NCBI RefSeq assembly: GCF_023091865.1
Contig: NZ_JAHXDI010000003.1
Location: 1-64,000 of the forward strand
Length of the DNA stretch: 64,000 bases
Direction: 5' to 3'
Source: Chromohalobacter moromii
GTDB lineage: Bacteria > Pseudomonadota > Gammaproteobacteria > Pseudomonadales > Halomonadaceae
The translations under genes were made by a program, and so were the position numbers. This document shows positions 38,086 to 55,865 of this stretch, in pieces. How positions within the stretch are numbered: the first letter of the stretch is position 1; the number at the start of each line of letters is the position of its first letter. The notes beneath the pieces are model-generated. The model worked only from the letters and a program-made list of their open reading frames with translations. It was not told the DNA's origin and did no database searches.

Positions 38086-38223
38086 ATCTCGCCTGTAGTG
38101 ACATGAGCTCCCAAGCTGAATCGTTTCATGTCATGCCGACGTCACGCGGTCTTGGGCAAGTGGGGCGTAACTGCGCTAACATCGGCGCTTCACTGTCGAA
38201 GCGGGGCTCCCGAGCGTCTGTCC

Positions 38224-39315: not shown

Positions 39316-39326
39316 GGAACACGCCC

Positions 39327-40490
39327 ATGAACGTGCGCAAGATGACCGATCTGGATCTCGCCGGAAAACGTGTACTGATTCGTGAAGACCTCAACGTGCC
39401 CATCAAGGGCGACCAAGTCACCAGCGACGCGCGCCTGCGCGCCTGCCTGCCGACCATCCAGGCCGCGCTCGACGCCGGCGCTCGGGTGATGCTGATGAGC
39501 CACCTGGGCCGCCCCACCGAGGGCGAGCCCGCCGATGAATTCTCGCTCGCCCCGGTGGCGACGCACCTCGGCAAGCTGCTGGGCCGCGAGGTACGCCTGG
39601 AAAAGGACTACCTCGACGGCAGCGTCGATATCGCCGAGGGTGAGGTGGTGCTGCTCGAGAACGTGCGCTACAACACCGGCGAGAAGAAGGACGACGAGGC
39701 ACTGGCCAAGACCTACGCCGCGCTCTGCGATGTCTACGTGATGGACGCTTTCGGTACTGCGCATCGCGCCCAGGCCTCGACCCATGGCGTGGCGCGATAC
39801 GCACCCACCGCCTGTGCGGGCCCCTTGCTGGCAGGCGAACTCGACGCGCTGGAAAAGGCGCTGGCCACGCCGGCACGCCCGATGCTGGCCATCGTCGGTG
39901 GCTCCAAGGTATCCACCAAGCTCGACGTGCTCACCGCACTGTCCGAAAAGTGCGACCAGTTGATCGTCGGCGGCGGCATCGCCAACACCTTCATCGCCGC
40001 CGCGGGCTACAACGTCGGCAAGTCGCTGCATGAAGCGGACCTGGTCGATCAAGCCAAGGCCTTCATGGCCAAGGTCGATATTCCACTGCCTTCCGACGTA
40101 GTGGTCGCCACCGAATTCTCCGAGCAGGCCGAGGCCAAAGTGAAGCCGGTCGACCAGCTCAACGACGACGACATGATCCTCGACATAGGCCCGGATACCG
40201 CCAAGCGCTTCGCCGCGCTGCTCGAAAACGCCGGCACCATCCTATGGAATGGCCCCGTCGGCGTGTTCGAGATCGACCAGTTCGGCAAAGGCACCGAGAC
40301 GCTCTCGCGTGCCATCGCCGCCAGTTCGGCGTTCTCCATCGCCGGTGGCGGCGACACCCTGGCGGCCATCGACAAGTACGGCGTCGCCGATGACGTCTCC
40401 TACATTTCCACCGGCGGCGGCGCCTTCCTCGAATACGTGGAAGGCAAGCAACTCCCCGCCGTGGCGGCGCTCGAAGCCGCCTCCCGGTAG
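39327..40490 (+). CDS. pgk: Phosphoglycerate kinase
   Basis: A 387-residue PGK. The N-terminal substrate domain has [12 protein letters not shown] and [12 protein letters not shown], and the C-terminal nucleotide domain has [13 protein letters not shown]. It interconverts 1,3-bisphosphoglycerate and 3-phosphoglycerate with ATP. GAGG lies eight bases before the ATG at 39327. The order epd-pgk-fba is conserved among many gammaproteobacteria and is probably one operon. Confidence 0.96.
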
Positions 40491-40560
40491 GCCTGACTCA
40501 CTACGGCACGACTTATAACTACGAATTATAACTAACTACTCAAGCCACTACGTCACGATC

Positions 40561-40582
40561 GGCGGCCTGCGGGCCGCCTTGT
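40561..40582 (+). other. Hairpin between pgk and fba
   Basis: GGCGGCC and GGCCGCC pair around a TGCG loop, followed by a weak T-containing stretch (TTGTACTTCT). It may attenuate or process the epd-pgk-fba transcript; termination is not certain. Confidence 0.4.
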
Positions 40583-40606
40583 ACTTCTAGAGGAATCACA
40601 CTCCCC

Positions 40607-41671
40607 ATGGCTCTGATCAGCCTGCGTCAACTGCTCGACCACGCCGCCGAACACGCCTACGGCGTTCCCGCGTTCAACGTCAACAACCTGGAACAGATGC
40701 GTGCCATCATGGAGGCCGCCGACCGCACCGACTCGCCGGTGATCGTCCAGGCCTCCGCGGGCGCCCGCAAATACGCCGGCGCGCCCTTCCTGCGTCATCT
40801 GATCCAGGCCGCCGTGGAAGAATTTCCACATATCCCGGTGGTCATGCACCAGGACCATGGCACCAGCCCCGGCGTGTGCCAGCGCTCCATCCAGCTCGGC
40901 TTCTCATCGGTGATGATGGACGGCTCGCTCAAGGAAGACGGCAAGACCCCCGCCGACTACGCCTATAACGTCGACGTCACCCGTCGCGCGGTGGAAATGG
41001 CGCACGCCTGTGGCGTCTCGGTGGAAGGCGAGCTGGGTTGCCTGGGCTCGCTGGAAACCGGCCAGGCCGGCGAGGAAGACGGCGTCGGCGCCGAAGGCAC
41101 GCTGGATCACAGCCAGCTGCTGACCGACCCGGAAGAGGCCGCGCAGTTCGTCGCCGCCACCCAGGTCGACGCCCTGGCCATCGCCATCGGCACCAGCCAC
41201 GGCGCCTACAAGTTCACGCGGCCGCCGACCGGCGACATCCTCTCCATCCAACGCATCAAGGAAATTCACGACCGCATCCCCGACACGCACCTGGTGATGC
41301 ACGGCTCAAGCTCGGTACCGCAGGAATGGCTGGAGACCATCAACGCGCACGGCGGCGAAATTCCCGAGACCTACGGCGTGCCGGTGGAAGAAATCGTCGA
41401 AGGCATCAAGCACGGCGTGCGCAAGGTCAACATCGACACTGACCTGCGTCTGGCCTCCACCGGCGCGGTGCGTCGCTTCCTGGCCGAAAACCCCAGCGAA
41501 TTCGATCCGCGCAAGTTCCTCAAGGAAAGCGTCACCGCCATGCGCGATGTGTGCATCCAACGCTTCGAAGCCTTCGGCACCGCCGGCCAGGCCAGCAAGA
41601 TCGCCCCGCTCAACCTCGAGCGCATGTTCGAGCGTTATGCGAGCGGTGAGTTGAAGCCGAAGGTGTCGTAA
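40607..41671 (+). CDS. fba: Fructose-bisphosphate aldolase, class II
   Basis: A 354-residue class II zinc aldolase of the CbbA-like subclass. The zinc motif HQDHGTS is near residue 85, the acidic helper segment is [12 protein letters not shown] near 140, and GTSHGAYKF and HGSSSVP complete the active site. It makes or splits fructose 1,6-bisphosphate and can also act on sedoheptulose bisphosphate in this subclass. It is the third gene of the epd-pgk-fba group and converges with the ABC transporter operon. Confidence 0.93.
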
Positions 41672-41740: not shown

Positions 41741-42697
41741 TTACTGCTTAAGCACGAACGGGTCGGTGTATTGATCGGCGTTGTCCGCGGTGATGAGGAA
41801 GCAGTCGAAGAGCTTCTTCTCGCCGTCGATGCCGGTATCACCGTTCTTGATGTATTTATCCGCCATACGCACCGCCATTTCAGAGAAGATGGCCACCGGC
41901 TGCAGTACGGTATATTCCATCTCACCGGCTTTTACCGCCTCGACCGCGTCAGGCGAACCATCGAAGCCCCCCACGACGACATCATCGAGCTTACCGGCCT
42001 CCTTCAAGGCTGAGATCGCGCCCAGCGCCATCTCGTCGTTGCCGCTGATCACGCCATCGATGTCCGGGTTGGCCTGCAACATGCTCTGCGTCTTGTTGAA
42101 GCCCTGGGTCCTATCCCAGTTGGCAACATCGACGCCGACCCGTTCGAGGCCGGGGTATTGGCTGAGCACGGTTTCGTACCCGTTGGAACGGGTGGCGGCG
42201 TTATTATCCGAGGGCGCCCCCTTGAGCTCTACGTAGCTTGCCGAATCGCCGACACTCTTGATCCACTGCTGTGCACCCAGCGCCGCCCCCTGGGCATTGT
42301 TCGAGACGAGCTGCGCCTGGGCCAGTCCCTTCTCGTTGATTTCGGCGTTGATGATAAACACCGGGATACCCGCATCGACGGCCTTGCGTACCGCCCCAAT
42401 AGAGCCGTCCGCATTGGCTGGGTCGAGAATGATGGCCTCTGCCTGATTGGTGATCGCCGTATCGATCTGATTGCTCTCGGTGTTGGTGTCTCCTTTGTGC
42501 GAGTTGACGTTAGCCTCATACCCCAATTCTTCGGCCGTCTCGCGGGCGATCTTACCCTCAGTAAACCAGTAGGGGTTGGAGGTGTCGTTGACGATAATGG
42601 AGATGCGTCCTTCGTCCTGGGCCGCGACCCCACCCACGAAGAGCGGCGTGCTCACGGCCAGTGCAGCTATCAGCAGGCGTTTTCCTTTCATGAACAT
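41741..42697 (-). CDS. Sugar ABC transporter periplasmic binding protein
   Basis: A 318-residue ribose/galactose-type (pentose/polyol) binding protein. A Sec signal peptide ends near residue 26 (GVAA-QDEG), and the mature domain has ISIIVNDTSNPYW, IILDPANADGSIG and GNDEMALGAISA, typical of the RbsB group. It binds a small sugar or polyol in the periplasm for the permease and ATPase encoded just upstream in the operon. The dehydrogenase, kinase and isomerase of the locus suggest a tetritol or tetrulose ligand. The ATG at 42697 follows AAAGGTGG; it is the last gene of the operon, 18 bases after the permease. Confidence 0.88.
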   Translation of the reverse strand: MFMKGKRLLIAALAVSTPLFVGGVAAQDEGRISIIVNDTSNPYWFTEGKIARETAEELGYEANVNSHKGDTNTESNQIDTAITNQAEAIILDPANADGSIGAVRKAVDAGIPVFIINAEINEKGLAQAQLVSNNAQGAALGAQQWIKSVGDSASYVELKGAPSDNNAATRSNGYETVLSQYPGLERVGVDVANWDRTQGFNKTQSMLQANPDIDGVISGNDEMALGAISALKEAGKLDDVVVGGFDGSPDAVEAVKAGEMEYTVLQPVAIFSEMAVRMADKYIKNGDTGIDGEKKLFDCFLITADNADQYTDPFVLKQ

Positions 42698-42715
42698 AAT
42701 CGACCACCTTTACTC

Positions 42716-43867
42716 TTATGATTGTGTACCGGCTTTACCGGCAGTACTTCCCGAGGCCGGCGAACGCGTAGCGGCGCTCTCCGGTTGCGGCGAAGTCGTC
42801 TTGCCATCGGAAGAGGCTTGCTGCTTCTTCCGACCGCTGTATTGAATGCTATTGAGCAAGACCGCGAGAATGATGACGGCCCCGGTGAACACGGTCTGCC
42901 AGTAGGAAGACACTCCGATGATGACCAGCCCATCGGAGAGAAAGCCGATCACGAAGGCCCCCAGCAACGTACCGCGCACATTGCCGCGGCCACCGGTGAG
43001 TGCCGCACCGCCGATGACGACACCGGCAATCGCGGTCAATTCATAGGTCGTCCCGGCGGTCGGTCCTGCCGAGGTCAATTGCGAGGACAGCACTAACCCG
43101 GCAATGGCCGCGCAGATGCCCGAAAGCACATAGACCAGCACTTGCACGCGTTTTACCGGCACTCCCGACAGTTCTGCAGCGCGCGCATTACCGCCGGTGG
43201 AATACACCCAACGCCCAAACGGCGTGCGCGCCAGCAGCAGGATGCAGGCGATCGCTACGGCCGCCAGCACCAGGACACCGACCGGAATCCCGAACAATCG
43301 ATTGAAGCCCAACCAGTCGAAACCGGTGTTGCCCAGCTCCGGACTACCGCCCAGATTGTTATAGGTCAGACCGTCGGTCATCAGCAGGGCGATGCCCCTT
43401 GCCACGTACAAGAGCCCCAGGGTCGCCACGAAGGCGGGCACCTTGAAATACGCAATCAGCACGCCATTGATCGCCCCGACCAGAGCGCCCAATCCACACG
43501 TCAGAATGACCACGACCCACACGGGGGGATAGAACACGACCCCCAGTATTTCGAAAGACACGCCTTGCATCAGAAAGCCGGCGAAGACGCCCGCCAGGCC
43601 AAGCGTCGAGCCCACGGAAAGGTCGATGCCCCCCGTCAGGATGACCAACAGCATCCCGAGTGATAGCAACCCGAAGATGGCGACGTGAGACGACATGGTC
43701 AGGAAGTTACTGGTCGAGAAATAGACAGGGGAAAGAATCGAGAAAATGACGATGATCGCGATCAAGGCGAAGAACGCACGCCCCTCTAGAAGCACACGCT
43801 TTATATCGAAATCGCCACCGAATAGTTTGCCACGCTCATTATCGTTATCTTGGCTGACATCAGACAT
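42716..43867 (-). CDS. Sugar ABC transporter permease
   Basis: A 383-residue RbsC-type permease with about ten membrane segments and the conserved GGIDLSVGSTLGLAGV near 80, followed by GRWVYSTGGNARAAELSG, the loop that meets the ATPase. The C-terminal 45 residues are hydrophilic and Ser/Gly-rich. It lies 27 bases after the ATPase gene. The N-terminus has a hydrophilic start (SQDNDNERGKLFGG). The transported sugar is inferred from the locus, not from this sequence. Confidence 0.88.
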   Translation of the reverse strand: MSDVSQDNDNERGKLFGGDFDIKRVLLEGRAFFALIAIIVIFSILSPVYFSTSNFLTMSSHVAIFGLLSLGMLLVILTGGIDLSVGSTLGLAGVFAGFLMQGVSFEILGVVFYPPVWVVVILTCGLGALVGAINGVLIAYFKVPAFVATLGLLYVARGIALLMTDGLTYNNLGGSPELGNTGFDWLGFNRLFGIPVGVLVLAAVAIACILLLARTPFGRWVYSTGGNARAAELSGVPVKRVQVLVYVLSGICAAIAGLVLSSQLTSAGPTAGTTYELTAIAGVVIGGAALTGGRGNVRGTLLGAFVIGFLSDGLVIIGVSSYWQTVFTGAVIILAVLLNSIQYSGRKKQQASSDGKTTSPQPESAATRSPASGSTAGKAGTQS

Positions 43868-43894
43868 TGTGATTATCTCCGCTTTACAAATGGA

Positions 43895-45463
43895 TCAAGC
43901 GACCACGGCCTCGCCCGAGGCAGCCATAATCTCTTCCTTGTTGGCATCGGCACCGAATTCGGCCGCAATCCGGCCACGACTCATGACGACGATACGATGG
44001 GCAATACTCAGGCATTCGCCGACTTCCGAGGTCGAGAACACTACGGCCAAGCCCTGTTGCGCTGCGCCCTCACTGAGTAGTTTGAAGACCTCCGCCTTGG
44101 CACCGATGTCGATCCCCCGGCTGGGTTCGTCAAGCAGCACGACCCGAGGATGCGTCGCCATCATCTTGCCGATCACGACCTTCTGCTGATTGCCACCGGA
44201 TAACGAACCAATAGAGGCGGCGGCACCGTCGGTCTTGATGTGGACATTGCTGATCGAGTCCCGCACCACGTGACGCTCACGTCCTCGCGATGTCAGTAGC
44301 CCTTTGGTAAAGGCACCGATGCTGGCAAGCGAGAGGTTTTCGCCCACCGACATCGTCTGTACCAGACCGTCGCGCTGACGATCTTCCGGCACCAGCACCA
44401 AGCCTTTTTCGATACGTTCCGCGATACTCAGCCGCGAGACATCCTCGCCATGCAGCAGGACTCGGCCCGCGGCCATGTTGCCTCGCCCCGCCACGCTTTC
44501 GAGCAGTTCGGTACGCCCCGCCCCCATCAACCCATAGATGCAGACGATTTCGCCGGCACGCACGCTCAACGACACGTCATCGACCACGGCCCGTCCGGGG
44601 ACCGACGCATCCGGGACAGTGACGCCCTCGATCGATAGCACGGCATCTCCCATCGCGTATCCGTCCGGCGGGGAACCGAGATCGAAGTTTTCCCCCACCA
44701 TGTTGCGTACGATCCATTCGAGATCGATCTCCTGACGCGCGGCATAGGCCGTCATCCGACCATCGCGCAACACCACGGCATGGTCGGTAATGGTCAGGGC
44801 TTCCTCGAGATGGTGGGAGATATATACGAGCGAGACGCCGCGGCTTTTCAGGTCACGAATCACGCGAAACAGAACCTCGACTTCCGAAGCGCTCAGTGCC
44901 GAGGTCGGCTCATCCATGATCAAAATGCGCGAATTGACGGATAGCGCACGGGCAATCTCGACGATCTGTTGCTGCCCGAGACGTAGATCTTCCACAGGCG
45001 TGAGAGGGTCGATGGGCTCATCCAGCTCTTCCATGAGTTGGCGCGTTTGACGCGCTTCCTCCGCGTAATCGACACCACCCTTGCCGACGATTTCACGCCC
45101 CATGAAGACGTTATCGCGGACGCTCAAATTGGGCGCAAGGCTAAGCTCTTGGTGAATGATCGATATTCCCTGGCGCTGCGCCTCCGTGGTCGAGGAGAAG
45201 CGAACCGGCTCGCCTTCGAGGACGATCTCCCCCGAGGATGGCTGCATGACCCCCGAGAGAATTTTCATCAGCGTCGATTTTCCCGCGCCATTCTCGCCGA
45301 AAAGCGTCGTCACTTGCCCGTAGTGGACATCGAAATTGACGGCCTTCAAGGCATGAACATTACCGAATGACTTGGCGATATTGCGCGCCGACAGAATCAC
45401 CTTGCCCAGCGCCCCTTCTTGACTGGTTGCATGTTCGTTCATCGCATCAAGCCTCCGGCTCAT
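43895..45463 (-). CDS. Sugar ABC transporter ATPase, RbsA/MglA type
   Basis: A 522-residue double ATPase. The first half has Walker A GENGAGKST near 62 and signature LRLGQQQIVEIA; the second has the degenerate GLMGAGRTE loop and LSGGNQQKV. This is the carbohydrate uptake transporter-2 layout. The ATG at 45463 overlaps the DUF2291 stop by four bases (ATGA). An alternative ATG at 45442 has a better GGAGG site, so translation may begin at either. It energises import with the permease next downstream. Confidence 0.9.
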   Translation of the reverse strand: MSRRLDAMNEHATSQEGALGKVILSARNIAKSFGNVHALKAVNFDVHYGQVTTLFGENGAGKSTLMKILSGVMQPSSGEIVLEGEPVRFSSTTEAQRQGISIIHQELSLAPNLSVRDNVFMGREIVGKGGVDYAEEARQTRQLMEELDEPIDPLTPVEDLRLGQQQIVEIARALSVNSRILIMDEPTSALSASEVEVLFRVIRDLKSRGVSLVYISHHLEEALTITDHAVVLRDGRMTAYAARQEIDLEWIVRNMVGENFDLGSPPDGYAMGDAVLSIEGVTVPDASVPGRAVVDDVSLSVRAGEIVCIYGLMGAGRTELLESVAGRGNMAAGRVLLHGEDVSRLSIAERIEKGLVLVPEDRQRDGLVQTMSVGENLSLASIGAFTKGLLTSRGRERHVVRDSISNVHIKTDGAAASIGSLSGGNQQKVVIGKMMATHPRVVLLDEPSRGIDIGAKAEVFKLLSEGAAQQGLAVVFSTSEVGECLSIAHRIVVMSRGRIAAEFGADANKEEIMAASGEAVVA

Positions 45464-46110
45464 TTCACGCTAAAGTCGACCGGTGTCACGAGCCAGTTAT
45501 TCGGATTGATCAACTGGAATACGCCCGTCACCGTCACGGTCTTGCCTTCCAGGTTTTGCGTATCGATATCCGATAGAACCTGAGCCTTCATGGCATCGTT
45601 CAGAGCGGCGCCCGCATTCTGGTATTCGATCTGATTTTTGAATTGACCGAATTCGATCTCCCCTGTGGCATCCCGTAGGTCGGTACCATTGATGGCCGGT
45701 CCGGTCTGAACCCTCACCACGAGATCATCGGGCGCCCCGTCGGCCTTGACCTCATAGGTCCCGGATGTGCCTTCACCCGCCACGCCGGTAAAGGTAACGG
45801 GCATGATCGGGCCAATCCCGCCCGATACACCGTATTTTTCCCCCGCCGCACTTTGGTCTTCGGCGATCGCACTAGACAGCTCATCGATATCGACGGCTCT
45901 GCTATCGACATCCTCGCGAATCTTGGGAAATTCTTCTTCGGCGAAGCGTGCCATTTTCGCGCCTTCCTGCTCCTCTTCCGCGCCGATCGGCATCACCGTG
46001 GTATCCCAGGCCATGACGGCAAGCAGGACGACCGCAACACCGATCATTACCGCCTTACCGCGCCTCTTTCGCCATCGTTTCTTAGGCATGGCAGCCGTAT
46101 GTGAAGTCAT
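45460..46110 (-). CDS. DUF2291 lipoprotein-like or membrane accessory of sugar importer
   Basis: A 216-residue protein with a basic N-terminus, one membrane segment (about 20-38) and a DUF2291 domain that ends in FQLINPNNWLVTPVDFSVK. DUF2291 genes recur beside RbsA/B/C-type importers, including those near polyol and tetrose catabolism, but their role is not established. It sits between the dehydrogenase and the ATPase and is coupled to the latter by ATGA. It may help the importer at the periplasmic face. Confidence 0.8.
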   Translation of the reverse strand: MTSHTAAMPKKRWRKRRGKAVMIGVAVVLLAVMAWDTTVMPIGAEEEQEGAKMARFAEEEFPKIREDVDSRAVDIDELSSAIAEDQSAAGEKYGVSGGIGPIMPVTFTGVAGEGTSGTYEVKADGAPDDLVVRVQTGPAINGTDLRDATGEIEFGQFKNQIEYQNAGAALNDAMKAQVLSDIDTQNLEGKTVTVTGVFQLINPNNWLVTPVDFSVK

Positions 46111-46198
46111 GATGAAGCGCCCCCTGGCGTCGCTGATGAGTGGTAATCACGTCCCACGCCGGATGACGGTCGTGACCGTTACGCGGGACATCGCGACA

Positions 46199-47299
46199 TC
46201 ACGCACTGGGTATGAGGATGATCTTGAGTGCGCTGCTGTCGTGCCTCATCAGCTCGATACCCTTGTGGAAATCCGCCAGTGGCAGCTTGTGGGTCACCAC
46301 ACCCTCGGTGGGAAAATCGCCGCTCTCGATACCCTCGATCACGTGTGGGTAGCAGTAAGGTCCTAGATGCGAGCCCAGCACGTCGAGTTCCTTGCGGTCG
46401 CTGATGATGCTCCAATCGACCGTCACCGGATCCTTGAACACGCTGAACTCGACGAAGCGGCCCAACTTGCGCAACATCGCCAGCCCCTGTTCCACTGACT
46501 TGGGCGCGCCGGTCGCCTCGATGTAGATGTCACAGCCATAGCCGTCGGTCATGTCTTTGACGATCTGAACGACGTCTTCGTCAGCTGGATTAAGCACCAC
46601 ATCGGCGCCGAATTTCTTGGCCAGTTCCAAGCGTTCACCGTGCAGATCGAGCACCACTAGCTTGGCGGGACCGGACTTCTTGGCCGGGCCGATCATTCCC
46701 AGCCCCAGGGTGCCGGCACCGGAGAGCACCACGATGTCTCCTAACTGGATTTGCGCCCGCTCCACCGCATGCATCGAGCAGGAAAACGGCTCGGTCAGTA
46801 CGATGTTCTCCACCGGCACATCGTCCGGCAGCTTGTGATTGATAGCTTCCTTGGGGAACTTCATGTACTCGGCCATGCCGCCGTTGACGTTATTCTGGAA
46901 GCCATACACGTCGTGCTTCTCGCACATCCAGTACTGGCCGCGATGACAGAAGCGGCAGTCCCAGCACGGCACGATCTGCTCGGAAATGACCCGATCCCCG
47001 ATCTCGAAACCCGTTGCCCCGGGACCCATCTTGACGACATGTCCGATGAACTCGTGACCTGGAATCATGGGGGCTTTGATATAGGCAGGCTGCTCCTCAT
47101 CGCCCCAGAAACTCGGCGCGCCTTCATACGCCTTGAGATCACCGGCACAGATGCCACAAGCCTCGACCTTGACCAGAATTTCCTTTTCACCGATATCGGG
47201 GACCGCAACGTTTTCCAGTCGATAGTCTTCCGGCGCATAGGCCACGATGGCACGCATCGTGTCGGGGATGTCGGGGGATGGGGTGAGCGTATCGTTCAT
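46199..47299 (-). CDS. Zinc polyol dehydrogenase, EltD-like
   Basis: A 366-residue medium-chain zinc alcohol dehydrogenase. The catalytic zinc region has Cys51 in GICAGDLKAYEG and His82-Glu83 in IPGHEFIG; the structural zinc uses C112, C115, C118 and C126. The Rossmann motif is SGAGTLGLG. The run APSFWGDEEQPAYIKAPMIPGHEF recalls erythritol/L-threitol dehydrogenases (EltD) described in mycobacteria, so the likely reaction is tetritol to tetrulose with NAD. The ATG at 47299 has GGAGG five bases upstream. It is the first gene of the importer operon, with its own promoter region. The exact stereoisomer cannot be read from sequence. Confidence 0.8.
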   Translation of the reverse strand: MNDTLTPSPDIPDTMRAIVAYAPEDYRLENVAVPDIGEKEILVKVEACGICAGDLKAYEGAPSFWGDEEQPAYIKAPMIPGHEFIGHVVKMGPGATGFEIGDRVISEQIVPCWDCRFCHRGQYWMCEKHDVYGFQNNVNGGMAEYMKFPKEAINHKLPDDVPVENIVLTEPFSCSMHAVERAQIQLGDIVVLSGAGTLGLGMIGPAKKSGPAKLVVLDLHGERLELAKKFGADVVLNPADEDVVQIVKDMTDGYGCDIYIEATGAPKSVEQGLAMLRKLGRFVEFSVFKDPVTVDWSIISDRKELDVLGSHLGPYCYPHVIEGIESGDFPTEGVVTHKLPLADFHKGIELMRHDSSALKIILIPSA

Positions 47300-47513
47300 G
47301 ATGGCCTCCATTGAGCTGACGCTTACTTATCATTTGATCTTTTGATGCTCAAATGAATTAACGCTTTTCAGTATAGCCAGGTCAATGAAGTCGGCGACCT
47401 TTTCGCCTTATACTTTAGGATTGCTTTTTAAATTATTGAAAATAATGGATTTTACATGGGCCTCTACGGAAGCCAATGCCCGCAATGTGCAGAAAGAGGG
47501 AGAAAGCCCGTAC
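47300..47513 (-). promoter_or_regulatory. Promoter region of dehydrogenase-importer operon
   Basis: AT-rich non-coding region before the dehydrogenase gene. On the minus strand TTGAGC and TAAGTA are 17 bases apart, and the flanking inverted repeat at 47330-47356 overlaps both. No ORF is supported. Confidence 0.5.
47330..47356. promoter_or_regulatory. Candidate SorC-family operator, dehydrogenase side
   Basis: A perfect 8-bp inverted repeat, TCATTTGA and TCAAATGA, separated by 11 bases. It overlaps the proposed promoter elements, 31-57 bases before the dehydrogenase ATG. Assignment to the adjacent SorC-type regulator is inferred from position. Confidence 0.45.
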
Positions 47514-47558
47514 AAAAAAGCCGTTCACATAGACACATCAGTGTTCATATGAACGGCT
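47514..47558 (-). terminator. Terminator of the SorC-family regulator gene
   Basis: On the minus strand AGCCGTTCA pairs with TGAACGGCT across a 22-base loop, followed by a T run of six. It closes the rpiB-sorC unit before the dehydrogenase operon. Confidence 0.8.
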
Positions 47559-47585
47559 CTGCACGACAACCGGCGACACTTTGAC

Positions 47586-48566
47586 TCAGCTCGCCGTTGA
47601 GGTAGTCGCCTCATCCAAGCGCAGAATGGTATGGGCGTTGGTCACACTGGTGGCCAAGGTATCGATGACACCCGTACGCAGTGCCCCCAGGATCCCCGCC
47701 GCCTTGGTATTCTCGCTGGCGATCGCCACCACGTCGGGAATCCGCGCCAAGTCGGTTATGGTCAAACCGATGACCCGCCCCTGCATGGGCGTTTCCGATG
47801 GCCGGCCATGCATGTCGATGAAGTCGTATCCCATCATGTCCCCCACCGTCCCCGAGAGGCGCGCCTCAGCGATCTCCTGCGGCGTGAACCAGCCCATGCG
47901 CACCATGTTGCTATCCTCGCTGAGATCACCGACACCGATCATCGCGATATCCGCGCGCCGTGCTCTGTCCAGCGTCTGGCGCACGGTGGGATTTTCATAC
48001 ATCGAGTCACGCAGCGCCGGGTTCTGCACCAGCGCCGGGGCATAAAGCGTTTCGCTTTCACCGCCATATTTCATCGCCAGGCGACGACATATATGGTCGG
48101 GATTCATGTACTCGCCGGCACGCAGCGAGCCGCCAATGGCACACACGAACGAGCATTTGCGCTCACCTTGCTCGAAGACATTATCGGCCACCGACCCCAC
48201 GTTACGTCCCATCCCCACTGCCACGATCGAACCATCGTGCAGCTCGCGCGACAAATGATCGGCCACCAGGCTAGCCACACCGGAACGTTGAACGTCGGGT
48301 TCGGCGTGGTCGAGCGCTATCAAGGCGCGCTTGATACCGAAGCGGCGTATCAGAGCCTGCTCGATCTCGGCACTCACCGCGGGGTGCTGACGCACGCGCA
48401 CATCGACGATCCCCTCGGCATGCGCGCGTTTTAAAAGCCGCCCCGCCTTGACCCGGGAAATTCCCAGCCGGTTGGCGATCGCTTCCTGGGTTTCGCCCTC
48501 TACATAATACAGAGAGGCGATCTCCGTCATTAGCGCGACCTCGGCGCTCTCGACACGTTCACTCAT
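47586..48566 (-). CDS. SorC/DeoR-type sugar-binding regulator
   Basis: A 326-residue SorC-family regulator. The N-terminal helix-turn-helix is GETQEAIANRLGISRVKAGR (about 24-43). The C-terminal two thirds form the sugar-phosphate-isomerase-like effector domain, with VGMGRNVGSVADNVF and VGDLSEDSNMVRMGW. EryD, the erythritol regulator of rhizobia and Brucella, is of this family, but that link is by context only. GAGG lies eight bases before the ATG at 48566. It is read from the same strand as rpiB and ends at its own terminator. Confidence 0.85.
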   Translation of the reverse strand: MSERVESAEVALMTEIASLYYVEGETQEAIANRLGISRVKAGRLLKRAHAEGIVDVRVRQHPAVSAEIEQALIRRFGIKRALIALDHAEPDVQRSGVASLVADHLSRELHDGSIVAVGMGRNVGSVADNVFEQGERKCSFVCAIGGSLRAGEYMNPDHICRRLAMKYGGESETLYAPALVQNPALRDSMYENPTVRQTLDRARRADIAMIGVGDLSEDSNMVRMGWFTPQEIAEARLSGTVGDMMGYDFIDMHGRPSETPMQGRVIGLTITDLARIPDVVAIASENTKAAGILGALRTGVIDTLATSVTNAHTILRLDEATTSTAS

Positions 48567-48657
48567 GGCACTAGCCTCATACGATCCGCTTCCCGATCCT
48601 GGTCCACTTCGGGCGACGCGCACAAGATACCACAGCGAACAGGCGTACTCTTAATGA

Positions 48658-49152
48658 TCAGACGCTCGGAGAGTCGCGGAAAGTCTCTCCCTCATATTCC
48701 GCAATGCGCGCTATTTTGGCGCGCGAGCCGCCACCGCCGAACTCGGTTTCCAGGAAGGTCGTCACCACGGCCTTGGCCAGCTCCGGGCCAACAACGCGGG
48801 CGCCGAGCGTCACGATTTGCGCATCGTTGCTCGAGCGCGCCTTGGCGGCCGAATAGGTGTCATGCGCCTGGGCAGCACGAATGCCACGCACCTTGTTAGC
48901 CGAAATCGCCACACCGATCCCGGTCCCACAGACCAGCACTCCCCGCGCCACTTCTCCTGCGTCGATGGCACGCGCCACCTTGACCGCCACATCGGGGTAC
49001 AGTACCGGCTCCGCGTTATAGGTGCCGTAATCGACAGGCTCGTAACCCAGAGCGCGAATGTGCTCGATCAGCAACGCCTTGAGCTCGAACGCGGCCTCGT
49101 CGCCGCCCACTGCGATGCGCATTGCCGCCGCGCGGCCTGTTGAGTCTGACAT
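48658..49152 (-). CDS. RpiB/LacAB-family isomerase, probably tetrulose 4-phosphate
   Basis: A 164-residue RpiB-fold isomerase. The isomerisation Cys75 in CGTGIGVAISANK is kept. The E. coli RpiB residue His10 (DH) is Glu19 here (GGDEA), and His99, thought to open the furanose ring, is Ser108 in an ungapped alignment (SSND instead of QHND). Ring opening is not needed for a four-carbon ketose phosphate, so a D-erythrulose 4-phosphate to D-erythrose 4-phosphate role (DerI/EryI-like) is plausible. GGGAGG precedes the ATG at 49152 by six bases. It is divergent from dhaK and upstream of the SorC gene. Confidence 0.82.
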   Translation of the reverse strand: MSDSTGRAAAMRIAVGGDEAAFELKALLIEHIRALGYEPVDYGTYNAEPVLYPDVAVKVARAIDAGEVARGVLVCGTGIGVAISANKVRGIRAAQAHDTYSAAKARSSNDAQIVTLGARVVGPELAKAVVTTFLETEFGGGGSRAKIARIAEYEGETFRDSPSV

Positions 49153-49212
49153 GTTTCGCCTCCCGTGATGATTCCTCCCGCTTGCGATCGGTATGCGGTG
49201 ACCGCTCGCGCC

Positions 49213-49239
49213 ATGTTCAAAATATCACTAACCGAACAT
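49213..49239. promoter_or_regulatory. Candidate SorC-family operator, isomerase side
   Basis: ATGTTC and GAACAT form a perfect 6-bp inverted repeat 15 bases apart, 61-87 bases before rpiB. It may bind the SorC-type regulator but differs from the repeat at 47330-47356, so this is weak. Confidence 0.3.
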
Positions 49240-49406
49240 TTGTAAAATTCTCGATCGCGAAAAGTCAGCCACGGATTTGCTTGACCCTATTACCCTATTT
49301 TCCGGCAAATAAATAAAATCCTTTTATTTCAAAAATATATACGTAAACAATAGCGTCGAAACTCTTGCCCACGACCAAAGTCTCAGGCGTCGACACCGGC
49401 CATGCC

Positions 49407-49435
49407 TTGACAGCCTTGGGCCCCAAGCCTAAACA
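49407..49435 (+). promoter_or_regulatory. Candidate promoter for dhaK operon
   Basis: A perfect -35 TTGACA is followed after exactly 17 bases by TAAACA, which matches three of six positions of the -10 consensus. The spacer holds a small palindrome, CTTGGG-C-CCCAAG, that could be bound by a regulator. The ATG is 92 bases further. Confidence 0.4.
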
Positions 49436-49526
49436 TCTGTTCAGTGAAAGATCATTATATACCGCCCGCTTAGGTGGTGGATCGCCACGCCCCATCGTCG
49501 GTCACAACGAACAAGAGGAATACGCC

Positions 49527-50519
49527 ATGCAACGCATCATCAATGACCCCGACAACGTCGTGGACGATGCCATCAAGGGTTACTTGCGCGCCTCGCCGAG
49601 CTTGTTTGCCGCCACCGACCACCCGCGTGTCCTCAAGTATCCGGGCAGCCCAAGCGACAAGGTCGGTATCGTCACCGGTGGCGGTTCCGGCCACGAGCCC
49701 GCCTTCCTGGGATATATCGGTGAAGGAATGTGTGATGCGGTAGCCATCGGTGAGATCTTCTCGTCACCCACCGCCGATGCATTTCTCGAAGCCTTTCGCT
49801 CCGCACCCCATGGGCAGGGGGTCGCCTGCCTGTACGGCAACTACGCGGGCGACAACATGAACGTGAAGATGGCCAAGCAGATGGCCGAGATGGAAGACAT
49901 CGAGGTCAAGACGGTGATTGCACGCGACGACGTGGCCTCGGCACCGGCAGCGGAGCGCGACAAGCGGCGCGGCGTGGCCGGCGAGGTGATGATGTGGAAA
50001 ATCGGCGGCGCGGCGGCGGCCCGGGGCGATAGTCTCGACGAGGTCATTCGCCTGGCGCAAAAAGCCGTCGATGCGTGTTCGAGCATCGGCGTCGGGCTGA
50101 GTAGCTGCACCATCCCCGCCAATGGCAAGCCCAACTTTTCGATCGAGCCCGGCCACATGGAGCTCGGCATCGGCCATCACGGCGAACCGGGAATAGAAGT
50201 CGCGCCGCTGACCAGTGCCGAGGCCATCGCCACGGCCATGTGCGACCCCGTTCTCGCCGACCAGGACTTCGCCGGCAGCGAGGTGGCGGTGTTGATCTCC
50301 GGACTTGGCGCCACGCCAGTGATGGAGCTCAATATCCTCTACGCACACATCGCCGAACGGCTCGAAGCCGCTGATATTCGCGTACACCGTACGGACATCG
50401 GCAATTACTTCACCTCGCTGGAGATGATGGGCGCCACGCTTACGCTGATGAAGCTCGACGACGAGCTCAAACCGCTGCTGGACGCCCCGGCGCGCTCGCT
50501 GGCCATCACGCAGTGCTGA
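49527..50519 (+). CDS. dhaK: DhaK-type ketose kinase subunit
   Basis: A 330-residue protein of the dihydroxyacetone kinase K-domain family. Residues known to act in E. coli DhaK are at the same positions: His56 (GGGSGHEP), Asp109 (YAGDN) and His218 (GHHGEPG), the last forming a covalent hemiaminal with the carbonyl of the substrate. This shows it binds a small ketose or aldose. Erythrulose kinases of mycobacteria belong to the DhaK/L superfamily, so a tetrulose substrate is plausible here. The partner DhaL gene follows 27 bases downstream. GAGGA lies before the ATG at 49527. No DhaM gene is in the window, so the phosphate donor may be ATP rather than PEP. Confidence 0.85.
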   Translation: MQRIINDPDNVVDDAIKGYLRASPSLFAATDHPRVLKYPGSPSDKVGIVTGGGSGHEPAFLGYIGEGMCDAVAIGEIFSSPTADAFLEAFRSAPHGQGVACLYGNYAGDNMNVKMAKQMAEMEDIEVKTVIARDDVASAPAAERDKRRGVAGEVMMWKIGGAAAARGDSLDEVIRLAQKAVDACSSIGVGLSSCTIPANGKPNFSIEPGHMELGIGHHGEPGIEVAPLTSAEAIATAMCDPVLADQDFAGSEVAVLISGLGATPVMELNILYAHIAERLEAADIRVHRTDIGNYFTSLEMMGATLTLMKLDDELKPLLDAPARSLAITQC

Positions 50520-50546
50520 TCGGAACCGCTACCACGGAGACTCATC

Positions 50547-51200
50547 ATGCAAGTTCTGGACGCGACTCAAGGCAGGGACATTCTCGAGGAACTGGTCGAG
50601 GTCATCGTCGACAACCGCCAATACCTGAGTGACGTCGATGGCGCGATCGGCGACGGCGATCACGGCATCAACATGGCCAAGGGTTTTCGGCTTTGCGGGG
50701 AGTCGATCGCCGGCCAATCACTGTCGCTTTCCAAGGCGCTGGGCACGCTCGCCACGACCTTGATGGGCTCGATCGGCGGTTCGATGGGACCACTTTACGG
50801 CAGCCTCTTCATGGGCATGGCCAAATCGGTCAAGGACAAGAACGTCCTCGACGCCAAGGATTTCGGCGAGATGTTGGCCGATGGGCAGCAGTCGCTCGAG
50901 CAAATCAGCGATGCCAAGGTCGGCGATAAGTGCCTGCTCGATACCCTGGTACCGGCCATCGAAAGCTACCGTCAGGCCATCGAGGTCAGCGACGATTTCC
51001 CGAACGCACTGCAGGCATTGCGCAACGGCGCCCAGCAGGGACGCGATTCGACGCTCGACCTGGAAGCCAAGATCGGGCGCGCGGCACGCCTCGGCGAACG
51101 CTCGCGCGGCCATCTGGACGCCGGCGCGGTGTCATGCTGCCTGCTGCTGACCCGCTTGGCCGATAGCACCGAACGTCGCCTGGAAAAAGCCGCCGCCTGA
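50547..51200 (+). CDS. dhaL: DhaL-type nucleotide subunit of ketose kinase
   Basis: A 217-residue L-domain protein. The Mg-ADP/ATP site is visible as Asp31, Asp36 and Asp38 in DGAIGDGDHGINMAKGF, corresponding to Asp30, 35 and 37 of E. coli DhaL. The C-terminal half has GSMGPLYGSLFM and VGDKCLLDTLVPA. The late segment reads RGHLDAGAVSC where E. coli-type PTS-linked DhaL usually has a GHxDPGA form, which may mark an ATP-using subgroup; that reading is tentative. It is encoded directly after dhaK. Confidence 0.84.
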   Translation: MQVLDATQGRDILEELVEVIVDNRQYLSDVDGAIGDGDHGINMAKGFRLCGESIAGQSLSLSKALGTLATTLMGSIGGSMGPLYGSLFMGMAKSVKDKNVLDAKDFGEMLADGQQSLEQISDAKVGDKCLLDTLVPAIESYRQAIEVSDDFPNALQALRNGAQQGRDSTLDLEAKIGRAARLGERSRGHLDAGAVSCCLLLTRLADSTERRLEKAAA

Positions 51201-51299
51201 GTACTGGCGGCCGCGCGCTCGGTCCCTTCCATTTTCTCGCCCCGACGCTACCTGGCACGTCGTGGGCCTTCACGCCCGCATACCGCGGCGGAGCACACC

Positions 51300-52256
51300 A
51301 TGGTTTCACAACTCGACTCACTCAAGGCACTATCGCAAGTGGTCGCCGACACCGGGGACCCAGCCGCCATCGAACGTTATCGGCCCGTCGATGCCACCAC
51401 CAATCCTTCCTTGATCCTCAAGGCATTCGAGCTGCCCGGCTATCAGCCACTGATCGAGCGGATCCTGGAAGAGGCGCGTGACGAGAAGTCACATGACGCC
51501 GACCACTTGGAGCGTATCGTCGACCGCCTCTCGGTCGGCATCGGCAGCGAGGTCGCCCAGCTCATTCCGGGACGCGTCTCCACCGAGGTCGCCGCCAAGC
51601 TCTCGTTCGATACCCAGGCCAGTATCCGCAAGGCTCATGAGTTGGTGGAGCGTTACGAGGCGCTGGGTATCGGCCGTGAGCGGATCTTGATCAAGCTCGC
51701 GTCGACCTGGGAAGGCATCCGTGCCGCCGAGGTACTCGAGCGCGAAGGCATTCAATGCAACCTCACCCTCCTGTTCAGCGACGCTCAGGCGCAGGCCTGC
51801 TTCGATGCCGGCGTGTTCCTGATTTCGCCCTTCGTGGGGCGTGTCACCGACTGGTATCAGAAAGAAACCGGTCAAACGTTCTCCCCGGAGGAGGACCCCG
51901 GCGTGCGGTTCGTGCGCCAGGTCTGCGAGCGCGCCGACCGGGGCGGCTACGATACCGTCGTCATGGGGGCCAGCTTCCGTACGCCGGAGCAAGTCCTCGC
52001 CCTCGCCGGCTGTCATCGCCTGACGATTTCTCCCGCCTTGCTGGAAACGCTCGAGGCGCGCGAAGGAGATGTCGACGCCAAGGTCCGCTTCACGCATCCC
52101 GAGGCGCAGCCTGTCCCTCCCCTAGAGGAAAACGCCTTTCGCTGGCAGCATAATCAGGACCCCATGGCCATCGACAAGCTGGCCGAAGGCATTCGTCGCT
52201 TCGCCGACGACCAGGCCTGTCTCGAGGACTTGATCGCCGACCGGCTCGCTAACTGA
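51300..52256 (+). CDS. tal: Transaldolase
   Basis: A 318-residue transaldolase of the TalB type. Asp17, Lys132 ([17 protein letters not shown]) and Glu96 region residues match the E. coli TalB catalytic positions, with Lys132 forming the Schiff base. It converts sedoheptulose 7-phosphate and glyceraldehyde 3-phosphate to erythrose 4-phosphate and fructose 6-phosphate, in either direction. In this locus it would drain erythrose 4-phosphate. It is 99 bases after dhaL and 10 bases of non-coding sequence before the tkt2 leader. Confidence 0.94.
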
Positions 52257-52281
52257 TTCATCGCTCATGGAGGAGACATCG

Positions 52282-54273
52282 ATGCCCTCTCGCTTCACGC
52301 TGGCCAATGCCATTCGCGCCCTGTCGATGGATGCCGTGCAGGCAGCCAATTCCGGCCACCCCGGCGCGCCGATGGGTATGGCCGATATCGCCGAAGTGCT
52401 GTGGAACGACCATCTCAAGCACAACCCCAGCAACCCCACCTGGCCCGACCGCGACCGTTTCGTGCTCTCCAACGGGCATGGTTCGATGCTGTTGTATTCG
52501 CTTTTACACCTCAGCGGTTATGACTTGGCCATCGACGACATCAAGCAGTTCCGCCAGCTCCATTCGCGCACGCCCGGGCATCCCGAGCTCGGCTACACGC
52601 CTGGGGTCGAAACCACCACCGGCCCGCTGGGTCAGGGGCTGGCCAATGCCGTGGGCATGGCACTCGCCGAACGCACTCTGGCCGCGCAGTACAATCGCCC
52701 AGGGCATGACATCGTCGACCATCGCACCTGGTGCTTCGTCGGCGATGGTTGCCTGATGGAGGGCATCAGCCACGAAGCCTGCTCGCTGGCGGGAACCCAG
52801 GGCCTCGGCAAGCTCACCGTCATCTACGACGACAACGGCATCTCCATCGATGGCGAGGTCGCAGGATGGTTCACCGATGATACCGCCAAGCGCTTCGAGG
52901 CCTACGGCTGGCAGGTCATCGCCGATGTCGACGGCCATGACCCAGCCGCCATCGAAGACGCCATCAACGCCGCCACGCAAGACGACCAGCGCCCGACCTT
53001 GATCATCTGCAGGACGGTCATCGGCTTCGGCGCGCCCAACAAACAGGGCACCGGCGCCTGTCATGGTGCCGCCCTGGGCGAGGATGAAGTCGCCGCCGCG
53101 CGCCAGCGCCTCGACTGGTCGCATCCACCGTTTCACGTGCCCGAGGAGGTCTACGCAGGCTGGAACGCCGACACGGCCGGCCAGCACGCCGAGGACGAGT
53201 GGCGCCAACGCTTCGCGCGCTACGCCGAGGCTTATCCCGAGCTTGCCGAAGAGCTCGAGCGCCGCTGGCGTGGCGAGCTACCCGGCGACCTGGGCGGCAG
53301 TGCCCTGATCGAAGAGGCCCAGCACGCCTGCGATACACTGGCCTCGCGCAAGGCCTCGCTCGGTGTGCTCAACCACCTGGGGCCACGCCTGCCGGAACTG
53401 CTGGGCGGCAGCGCCGACCTCGCGCCATCGAATCTGACGATCTGGGAGGGCGCACGCGCCATCTCGGCCCAGGCACCCGACGGCAACTACCTGCATTACG
53501 GCGTTCGTGAATTCGCCATGGGCGCCATCATGAACGGCATCAGCATGCACGGCGGCTTCATTCCCTATGGAGCCACCTTCCTGACGTTCATGGAATACAT
53601 GCACAACGCCGTGCGCATGGCCGCCATCGCGCGGCGCCAGGTGATCTTCGTCTACACCCACGACTCCATTGGGCTTGGCGAAGACGGTCCGACTCACCAG
53701 CCCATCGAACAACTCAATGCGCTACGCATCACGCCGAACTTGGCAACGTGGCGCCCCTGCGACGCCACCGAAACCAGCGTGGCCTGGCTGGCGGCGCTCA
53801 AGCGCCAGGACGGCCCCACGGCTTTGGTATTTTCGCGCCAAGGGCTTCCCGGGCAAGCACGCGATGTCGCACAGCTCGCCGCGATCGAACGCGGCGGTTA
53901 CGTGCTCGACGATTGCGAGGGCACGCCCGAGTTGATCCTCATCGCCACCGGCTCGGAAGTCGGTCTGGCCATGGAAGCGGCTGCCCAGCTCAACGACCAG
54001 GGACGGCAGGTCCGCGTCGTCTCGATGCCCTGCGCCAGCGAATTCGATGCCCAAGACGCCGATTACCAGGAGGCGGTGCTACCACCCACGGTGACACGCC
54101 GGCTCGCCATCGAAGCTTCGCATCCCGACTATTGGCGCAAGTACGTCGGCCCTCGAGGCAGCGTGATCGGCATGACCGGCTACGGCGAATCGGGCAAGGC
54201 CGAGGACCTGTTCCGTCACTTCGGCTTCACCGTCGAGAACGTGATCGACACGGCTCGCACCTTGCTCGACTGA
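52282..54273 (+). CDS. tkt: Transketolase 2, tetritol-locus copy
   Basis: A 663-residue transketolase with the same motifs as the copy at 25729: [28 protein letters not shown] and [18 protein letters not shown]. The start was placed at 52282 because its GGAGGA ribosome site overlaps an upstream ATG at 52267. In the locus it can combine erythrose 4-phosphate with xylulose 5-phosphate to give fructose 6-phosphate and glyceraldehyde 3-phosphate. It follows tal by 25 bases. Length equal to copy 1 and 50 of 60 identical N-terminal residues suggest a paralogue from duplication rather than a distant transfer. Confidence 0.94.
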
Positions 54274-54482
54274 CCCGCCTCTGGCCCTGGCCGCCAAGGT
54301 CATGTCGCCATTTGCCGAAGCCGGTGCGCCGGGCTCGGCACTCGCTCAGGGGCTACGCGACTCGATGAGTCGCCGGCGCCCCCTTGATTCTCTCCTTCAG
54401 CATCGCCAAAACGAATAGTGAGGCAAGCAGGAAGGCTGCCTCGGGAAGATTCGTCGCCGACGATCCCGTTAAGGAGGATGAT

Positions 54483-55865
54483 ATGAGCCGCAAGACTCTC
54501 ACCGCCGTCAATCCCGCCAACGATCAAGTTCTCGGCGAGCACGAGATGCTCGACGATACCCAGTTGGCTGAAAAGCTCGACCAAGCCCGCGCAGGCTATG
54601 CCGAATTCCGTCACTTGCCGTTGGCCGACCGTCGCCAACGGCTCACCGCACTGGCCGACTTGATCGACCAGCATCAGCGCGAAATGGCCGAGATCATCGC
54701 CCATGAGATGGGCAAGCCCTTCCACCAGGGGATTGCCGAGACACAGATTTCCTCGGCCATCGTTCGCTTCTACGCCGACAACCTGGAGTCCCTGCTCAAA
54801 CCCCAATCACGTCAGGTGGAAGGCGCTCAAAAGGCCGAAATCGTTCACGACCCGATGGGGGCCGTACTCGGCGTGATGCCGTGGAACTATCCGCTTTATC
54901 AGGTGGTACGCTTCGCCGCGCCCAATCTGGCAGGTGGCAACGTCTGCCTGCTCAAGCATGCCTCCAATGTCCCGGGCTGCGCCAAGTTCATCACCAAGCT
55001 TTTCCACGACGCAGGCTTCAAGGAAGGGACCTTCACCTGGCTGCCGGTTGGCTCCGACAAGGTCGAGGGCATCATCCACGACCCACTGGTGTGCGGCGTC
55101 ACGCTCACCGGCAGTGAAGATGCCGGCCGTGCCGTGGCCAAGATCGCCGGCGAGGCCATCAAGCCCAGCGTGCTCGAGCTCGGCGGTATCGACCCGCTGA
55201 TCGTGCTCGACGATGCTGACGTCGACAAGGCGGTGGAACTGGCCGTAAACGGCCGCTTCGACAATACCGGGCAAAGCTGCGCCGCCTCCAAGCGACTGAT
55301 CGTGGAACGCCCGATGCTGGAGCGCTTCACCGAACGGCTCATCGACCGTGTTCAGAAGATGAGCATCGGTGATCCCATGGATGGCGATACCGAGGTCGGC
55401 CCCATGTCGCGCAAGGATCTGCGTGACGATCTCCATGACCAAGTTCAGCGGGCGATCAAACAAGGGGCGCAGCTCGAAACCGGCGGCGAGGTACTCGATC
55501 GCCCCGGCGCCTGGTATGCGCCCACGGTGCTGACCAATGTCGCGCCCGGCAATCCGGCCTTCGACGAGGAGCTGTTCGGCCCGGTGGCGTCGGTCATCGT
55601 CGCTGACGACGCCGAGCACGCCATCGAGCTGGCCAACAACTGCCGCTATGGATTGGGTGGCACCGTGGTCGGCCAAGACGTAAAGCGCGCCGAACAGGTC
55701 GCGCGTCGTCTCGAGGTCGGCATGAGCTTCGTCAATCGTCCCACCACGCCCTTCGCGGAGCTGCCCTTCGGTGGCGTCAAGGAAAGCGGCTACGGTCGCG
55801 AGCAGAGCGAATATGGCTTCGGCGCCTTCCTCAACGTGCGCACGGTCTATATCGCCGAGTCATAG
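54483..55865 (+). CDS. Aldehyde dehydrogenase, Sad/YneI type
   Basis: A 460-residue NAD(P)-dependent aldehyde dehydrogenase. The nucleophile is Cys266 (NTGQSCAASKR) and the general base is Glu232 (LELGGIDP); the NAD motif is VMPWNYPLYQ at 131-140. The short length and the LLKHASNVPGCA stretch resemble E. coli Sad (YneI), a succinate-semialdehyde dehydrogenase. A strong AAGGAGG precedes the ATG. It lies 209 bases after tkt2 on the same strand and may be in the same transcript, or be a separate gene; its substrate in this setting (for example a short aldehyde) is unknown. Confidence 0.86.
   Translation: MSRKTLTAVNPANDQVLGEHEMLDDTQLAEKLDQARAGYAEFRHLPLADRRQRLTALADLIDQHQREMAEIIAHEMGKPFHQGIAETQISSAIVRFYADNLESLLKPQSRQVEGAQKAEIVHDPMGAVLGVMPWNYPLYQVVRFAAPNLAGGNVCLLKHASNVPGCAKFITKLFHDAGFKEGTFTWLPVGSDKVEGIIHDPLVCGVTLTGSEDAGRAVAKIAGEAIKPSVLELGGIDPLIVLDDADVDKAVELAVNGRFDNTGQSCAASKRLIVERPMLERFTERLIDRVQKMSIGDPMDGDTEVGPMSRKDLRDDLHDQVQRAIKQGAQLETGGEVLDRPGAWYAPTVLTNVAPGNPAFDEELFGPVASVIVADDAEHAIELANNCRYGLGGTVVGQDVKRAEQVARRLEVGMSFVNRPTTPFAELPFGGVKESGYGREQSEYGFGAFLNVRTVYIAES

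Follow-up and report, generated by a model that had tools for sequence, protein, structure and literature searches.

In Rhizobium leguminosarum, erythritol is taken up by the EryEFG transporter, which is described as distinct from MptABCDE and whose transcript opens with a hypothetical gene (PMC3599248). EryD of Ochrobactrum was reported to act as an erythritol-responsive repressor (PMC10190533). In Mycolicibacterium smegmatis, EltD and LerK together convert erythritol to D-erythrulose 4-phosphate, and plasmid-borne EltD, LerK and DerI (with LerI) lead from erythritol to erythrose 4-phosphate (E4P) in Escherichia coli (PMC10733421). Erythritol supports growth of Halomonas HL-93, and both a pathway and an ATP-binding cassette (ABC) system for it were predicted in the microbial-mat genome set to which this strain belongs (PMC5507952). 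Erythritol is entered as +/+ for Chromohalobacter salexigens, whose metabolic model could not use this substrate until reactions including EC 2.7.1.27 were added (PMC3034673). Here we analyse a stretch of 64,000 nucleotides from the salt-loving bacterium Chromohalobacter moromii (the window), which contains a locus that very probably constitutes an erythritol-utilisation regulon.

The locus spans positions 41741-54273 and comprises 11 genes in two operons. On the minus strand, an rpiB-like gene is followed by the genes for a SorC-type regulator, a zinc dehydrogenase, a DUF2291 protein and the ATPase, permease and substrate-binding protein (SBP) of an ABC importer. The plus strand carries dhaK, dhaL, tal and tkt. 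All of these genes had been named in an earlier note on this DNA, and matches to family profiles confirm each at its place. The note had described two facing operons; there are two, but they diverge. The features are as follows.

41741-42697, minus strand: SBP of the EryG type, predicted to bind erythritol (73.7-74.6% identity to the SBPs of three ery loci, and the pocket signature given below).
42716-43867, minus strand: ABC permease of the CUT2 type, EryEFG importer (PF02653, 164 bits; 73-81% identity to the three ery-locus permeases).
43895-45463, minus strand: ABC ATPase with two domains, EryEFG importer (PF00005 in two stretches; 74-78% identity to the three ery-locus ATPases).
45460-46110, minus strand: DUF2291 accessory protein (PF10054, 145.5 bits; 49-56% identity to the three ery-locus copies).
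46199-47311, minus strand: EltD-like zinc polyol dehydrogenase, putatively converting erythritol to D-erythrulose (PF08240/PF00107).
47330-47356, no strand assigned: candidate SorC operator TCATTTGA-N11-TCAAATGA upstream of the dehydrogenase gene (conservation across rows).
47586-48623, minus strand: SorC-type transcriptional regulator (PF04198, 239 bits).
48658-49152, minus strand: RpiB-fold isomerase that groups with EryI, putatively converting D-erythrulose 4-phosphate to D-erythrose 4-phosphate (PF02502).
49219-49246, minus strand: promoter-like hexamers TTTACA-16-TATTTT before the isomerase gene, overlapping the GAACATTTGTAAA half-site (consensus scan).
49524-50519, plus strand: DhaK-type kinase subunit, which with DhaL would convert D-erythrulose to D-erythrulose 4-phosphate (PF02733, 374 bits).
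50547-51200, plus strand: DhaL-type nucleotide-binding kinase subunit (PF02734; TIGR02365, 168.7 bits, cut-off 138.3).
51300-52256, plus strand: second transaldolase (TIGR00874, 411.5 bits, cut-off 396.2).
52267-54273, plus strand: second transketolase (PF00456, 544 bits).

In the pathway that we infer, down to its substrates, enzyme activities and phosphate donor and the effector and sites of the regulator, the EryEFG-type importer and its DUF2291 partner would bring in erythritol. The EltD-like zinc dehydrogenase, presumably NAD-linked, would oxidise it to D-erythrulose, and an ATP-dependent, two-subunit DhaK/DhaL-type kinase would phosphorylate the product to D-erythrulose 4-phosphate. An EryI/DerI-like isomerase would then form D-erythrose 4-phosphate, to be drained through transaldolase (Tal) and transketolase (Tkt), while the SorC-type regulator would act on operators in the two intergenic regions to control both operons. 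The earlier note had proposed a C4-polyol route with E4P as its product. This proposal is supported by the orthology of the importer to EryEFG, its exchangeable association with eryAB, the grouping of the isomerase with EryI and its loss of His99, a DhaK unlike the glycerone kinase of the same genome, and the published growth of one member of the genus on erythritol.

When plasmid records were searched at the protein level with the window SBP, 253 matched, mostly from Rhizobium and Sinorhizobium. In the three that were opened (Paracoccus, Shinella and Rhizobium), the match lies inside a row DUF2291-ATPase-permease-SBP, which diverges from genes of the eryA, eryB, eryC and eryD types, assigned from annotation and gene order. 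The window shares this arrangement, with DUF2291 ahead of the ATPase, permease and SBP genes, and we take the hypothetical gene of the R. leguminosarum transcript to be DUF2291. In contrast to its 73.7-74.6% identity to the three ery-locus SBPs, the window SBP is 52.5% identical to 5ibq of R. etli and 29.5% to RbsB, with MptA outside this comparison. By sequence, the protein groups with EryG and not with ribose SBPs, the importer is of the rhizobial EryEFG type, and it is predicted to bind and transport erythritol. The AlphaFold model of the DUF2291 protein (pLDDT 81.6 overall, below 50 at the N-terminus) predicts an OB-fold with an N-terminal helix, the helix at low confidence. Its best fold match is 2f4i (TM0957 of Thermotoga maritima, E 7.5e-9), and at E 0.001 the only matches are the three 2f4i chains.

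The importer is also where a pentitol or pentose substrate, such as ribose or apiose, has to be considered. The SBP is similar to ribose-type binders, and its best solved relatives, 5ibq and 4ry0 of R. etli, were deposited under the name probable ribose SBP. RpiB, Tal and Tkt together form the non-oxidative pentose phosphate pathway. We take 5ibq to be an R. etli protein with apiose as its ligand. To describe the pocket, 13 columns aligned to the ligand contacts of RbsB were used, for which the contact list and the RbsB residues are those we assume for that protein. The resulting signature, NNYWDNANRWNDQ, is present in 75 of 76 family rows, the 76th differing at one position, and the window pocket is identical to those of the three ery-locus SBPs. 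At the same columns, 5ibq reads PNFFDDRNRWNDQ; five of the 13 positions differ, including Asp89-Arg90, which is replaced by Asn-Ala. This replacement disfavours a ribose- or apiose-type ligand, and the apiose/ribose reading raised by 5ibq and 4ry0 was abandoned in the light of the pocket residues and the ery-locus matches. Neither an FGGY kinase nor a further sugar isomerase is encoded among the genes of the locus, and RpiA and another RpiB are encoded elsewhere in the genome.

The enzyme genes next to the importer form a recurrent block. A scan with the dehydrogenase, using one genome per species, gave 161 relatives, and the best 79 of the 161 loci were kept (the named loci): 34 from Halomonadaceae, one from Marinobacter, 38 from Caryophanales and six from Serratia, with dehydrogenase identities of 72-99%. 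The isomerase is found in 74 of them, DhaK in 72, and both lie near the dehydrogenase in 72, a gene set far beyond chance that we refer to as the module. The first eight loci in the dehydrogenase listing belong to Chromohalobacter, to which the host is nearest (93-99% dehydrogenase identity). A Providencia protein 54% identical to the window dehydrogenase is annotated as erythritol/L-threitol dehydrogenase.

In the host family, Halomonadaceae, the SBP was present at E 1e-80 in 72 of 275 genomes, and the stretch around it was examined in all 72 (71 and the window) and classed by tblastn. Fifty-nine contain an EltD-type dehydrogenase (at least 60% identity), ten contain EryA and EryB, three show neither in view and none shows both in the stretches examined, some of which stop at contig ends so that absences are not firm. 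The window locus gave no EryA or EryB matches. An isomerase and a DhaK are also seen in 53 of the 59 EltD-type genomes; 17 of these have the window-type DhaK (at least 60% identity) and 36 a DhaK that is 35-38% identical. All loci taken together, the window type is a single DhaK in 37 of 37 rows, and the other type is a fused protein of at least 480 residues in 54 of 56 rows, the remaining two being incomplete. Since the EltD and EryAB routes alternate behind one importer, which is strong context evidence, both would serve the same substrate. The two kinds are not cleanly separated in the SBP tree, where the EryAB label needs three changes, of which the starred branches force only one. In one EryAB locus of the family (L041, 12364-14133), a TpiB-like gene accompanies a hydroxypyruvate-isomerase-like gene, a possible stand-in for EryC; tblastn found no EryI-type isomerase in this stretch.

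The isomerase departs from RpiB at several residues, with Ser in place of His99 in the window protein. Ser replaces His99 and His134 of E. coli RpiB, and Arg137 is missing, in all 97 module isomerases (distinct sequences, related genomes included) and all three rhizobial EryI, while the module isomerases keep Cys66 and Thr68. His99 is kept in three solved RpiB structures and in the other RpiB of the genome. In RpiB, this residue opens the sugar ring, a step needed for pentoses; E4P has no ring of that kind. Position 10 is Glu in 31 of 31 named Halomonadaceae sequences, Glu in seven of 36 from Caryophanales, Asp in six of six from Serratia, and Ser in EryI. A tree of 40 rows has a branch with support 99/95 that sets the four RpiB apart; on its other side, the three EryI, so named because they follow tpiB, nest among the module isomerases. 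The isomerase does score above the cut-off of the RpiB subfamily model PRK05571, which would fit a pentose pathway. With His99 lost and the SBP pocket matching those of the ery loci, we consider a pentitol or pentose highly improbable as the substrate.

The kinase genes raise the further possibility of dihydroxyacetone or glycerol catabolism, with DhaK/DhaL as a true glycerone kinase. Both subunits match Dha kinase families, and DhaL exceeds the TIGR02365 cut-off, whereas DhaK reaches only 356 bits against TIGR02363, below the cut-off of 406. The position of E. coli Lys104 is occupied by Gly in 96 module DhaK rows and in one row beside the Shinella ery locus, while Lys104 is kept in E. coli, in Lactococcus lactis and in a separate 561-residue kinase of the host genome. 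The corresponding motif reads GNYAGD in the window DhaK and the usual KNYTGD in the 561-residue kinase. The DhaK residues His56, Asp109 and His218 are conserved, apart from a gap at His56 in one partial row. No TIGR02364 match, and hence no DhaM, was found in the genome at E 0.01, a search whose control matched in three of 14 cases; ATP is therefore the likely phosphate donor. Dihydroxyacetone use was dropped because of Gly104 and the absence of DhaM from the genome. The isomerase, Tal and Tkt would not be required for dihydroxyacetone either, and we regard a glycerone kinase role as extremely unlikely. Beside the Shinella ery locus (L004, 17293-18993) lies a Dha-type kinase with GNYAGD, suggesting an erythrulose kinase there too.

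A further alternative concerns tetritols other than erythritol. EltD has been described as an erythritol/L-threitol dehydrogenase; together with LerK, it uses L-threitol as well as erythritol (PMC10733421). Since L-threitol is a further substrate of EltD-type enzymes, and L-erythrulose of the kinase, erythritol might not be the main substrate of the locus, which could instead serve L-threitol, L-erythrulose or several tetritols. Where the other, fused DhaK type occurs, many loci (L045, L046, L165-L169 and similar) contain an extra gene resembling triosephosphate isomerase (TIM), 33-38% identical to TpiB, which could be the isomerase of an L-threitol/L-erythrulose branch. Such a branch needs an L-erythrulose-1-phosphate isomerase, a TIM-like enzyme. 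The host genome has a single TIM gene, away from the locus, and no second TIM or LerI-type isomerase. Because the L-branch isomerase is needed but only one TIM is present, erythritol use via D-erythrulose is favoured, and the importer is of the erythritol type; a locus devoted mainly to the L-branch or to several tetritols appears unlikely. The earlier assignment to a four-carbon polyol thus holds, while its openness to any tetritol narrows to erythritol as the most likely substrate.

The locus also offers a possible gene-level explanation for growth within the genus. The C. salexigens model was patched with EC 2.7.1.27, erythritol kinase, among the added reactions. The module would be a candidate, at the level of genes, for the Chromohalobacter growth on erythritol that the published model accommodated in this way (PMC3034673).

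The genome contains two transaldolases, the locus copy being 68.7% identical to the other. It likewise has two full transketolase copies, in agreement with the earlier note, which had named a second one; the other, housekeeping-type copy lies in the window at 25729-27720 and is 73.3% identical. At a threshold of at least 40% identity, Tkt is present in 38 and Tal in 25 of the 79 named loci. Tal is absent from the 38 Caryophanales loci at this threshold; the Serratia loci have Tal in six of six and Tkt in three of six. In the family survey, both were seen in 24 of 59 EltD-type and six of ten EryAB-type loci, where some Tkt may be housekeeping neighbours. With tal and tkt genes overexpressed, engineered E. 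coli showed up to a threefold increase in growth on erythritol (PMC10190533), and growth of a Brucella vaccine strain on erythritol was reported to stop only when both Tal and Fba were lost (PMC11508834). As E4P must drain via Tal and Tkt, and in light of these two results, a dedicated pair is the expected flux support. The clustering of dedicated Tal and Tkt had been judged unusual in the earlier note, yet such clusters turn up repeatedly: within the family, in Serratia and on plasmids of enterobacteria.

On plasmids of E. coli and Klebsiella, the set comprises the dehydrogenase, a major facilitator superfamily (MFS) transporter, DhaK, DhaL, a regulator, the isomerase, Tal and Tkt; a Salmonella plasmid has these genes except Tkt, plus an extra short-chain dehydrogenase/reductase gene. 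These EltD-type clusters (L146, L204 and L205) are located near insertion sequences. In a megablast search against 5426 complete E. coli genomes, most of the cluster was found only in the source record itself. A Bacillota plasmid copy of the module is accompanied by an MFS transporter and a class II fructose bisphosphatase. The cluster is also present in six Serratia loci (L105, L121, L127, L130, L133 and L136). Growth on m-erythritol is a biotyping test for Serratia marcescens that the source gives without an assigned pathway (PMC9440931), and the Serratia cluster is a candidate for its basis.

The SorC-type regulator is 78-99% identical in the EltD-type family loci where it was found. By analogy, it may have an EryD-like role, EryD being, as we assume, a SorC-type protein. 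Because a hairpin behind the regulator gene interfered with a search by shared k-mers, operators were sought as inverted repeats. The element TCATTTGA-N11-TCAAATGA occurs without mismatch in 24 of the 25 rows that have the window-type DhaK, a set in which some genomes appear twice; genome-wide, no site other than the copy at 47330-47356 comes within one mismatch. A half-site, GAWCATTTGT, precedes the isomerase gene in eight of the nine window-type rows inspected. The consensus scan for promoters and terminators, which yielded the hexamers listed above, gave no excess over shuffles.

In the window, the locus is preceded by an epd-pgk-fba row (38218-41671), whose gap-like gene has erythrose-4-phosphate dehydrogenase as its best model (479.5 bits, below the cut-off of 530.55). 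The fba gene adjoins the SBP gene in all eight named Chromohalobacter loci. An aldehyde dehydrogenase gene at 54459-55865 has succinate-semialdehyde dehydrogenase as its best model, below the cut-off; it follows tkt in six of the eight, one of the remaining two being incomplete.

Several observations weigh against the proposed erythritol pathway. The operator is absent from all 18 testable rows of the other DhaK type (those in which regulator and dehydrogenase are neighbours), where the best matches have 3-6 mismatches. His10 is kept in 29 of 36 Caryophanales isomerases, so the change at position 10 is not general, and the isomerase tree held only four RpiB, three of them on long branches. Against NF051858, the NCBIfam equivalog model for rhizobial DerI, the isomerase scores 156 bits, below the cut-off of 240, while its 178.7 bits to the broad model PRK05571 exceed the cut-off of 135. 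We therefore do not file it under NF051858 and take it only as probably working like EryI/DerI. Some DerI activity may also be present in E. coli RpiB (PMC10733421). C. salexigens DSM 3043 and HL-93 are not among the named loci, and the growth reports are linked to the window by genus or family only. The match to the M. smegmatis EltD-LerK-DerI route is at the level of enzyme types and reaction logic.

What is new is the combination of an EryEFG importer with an EltD route, exchanged with EryAB within one family; the parts and reactions are known singly, and part of this may already stand in the supplement of PMC5507952. Among the matches listed, titles and abstract openings contained no description of an EryEFG-EltD locus type, in a search that mostly did not cover subscription literature. 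The module proteins are set apart from the compared RpiB, glycerone kinases and ribose SBP by Ser99/Ser134 of the isomerase, Gly104 of DhaK and Asn89-Ala90 of the SBP. The locus would also provide a compact erythritol-to-E4P gene set with its own Tal and Tkt, the enzymes that aided engineered E. coli on erythritol (PMC10190533). We think it probable, with some reserve, that erythritol use evolves by swapping whole routes behind a fixed importer. Beside an orthologous EryEFG importer, Halomonadaceae would have either the EltD route, in which oxidation comes first, or the EryAB route, which begins with phosphorylation; the two would replace each other, and both would lead to E4P. The EltD module, found also in Bacillota, Serratia and enterobacterial plasmids, would by the same account be the missing genetic basis of Chromohalobacter growth on erythritol and a candidate basis of the S. 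marcescens test, which had no assigned pathway (PMC9440931).

The enterobacterial plasmid clusters share with the window locus the dehydrogenase, an RpiB-type isomerase, DhaK, DhaL, Tal and a sugar-binding regulator in three records, and Tkt in two. They differ in their MFS transporter, in place of which the window locus has the ABC importer with DUF2291. The zinc polyol dehydrogenase, Dha-type kinase and RpiB-type isomerase stand together in the window locus; the M. smegmatis kinase and isomerase are presumably of the Dha and RpiB types as well. The M. smegmatis route resembles it in its polyol dehydrogenase, erythrulose kinase, isomerase and product, D-erythrose 4-phosphate (PMC10733421). 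Unlike that route, the window locus has an EryEFG-type importer, a SorC regulator, separate DhaK and DhaL genes, dedicated Tal and Tkt, and a gammaproteobacterial host. The genome set that includes HL-93, a strain placed in the host family by its genus name, shares a predicted erythritol pathway and an ABC importer (PMC5507952). With the rhizobial and Brucella ery locus (eryABCD, eryEFG, eryR-tpiB-rpiB; PMC3599248), the window locus has in common the end product, a SorC-type regulator, the orthologous importer preceded by DUF2291, and an isomerase of the EryI grouping. It differs in lacking the EryA kinase, the EryB dehydrogenase, EryC and TpiB, and in a route in which oxidation would precede phosphorylation.

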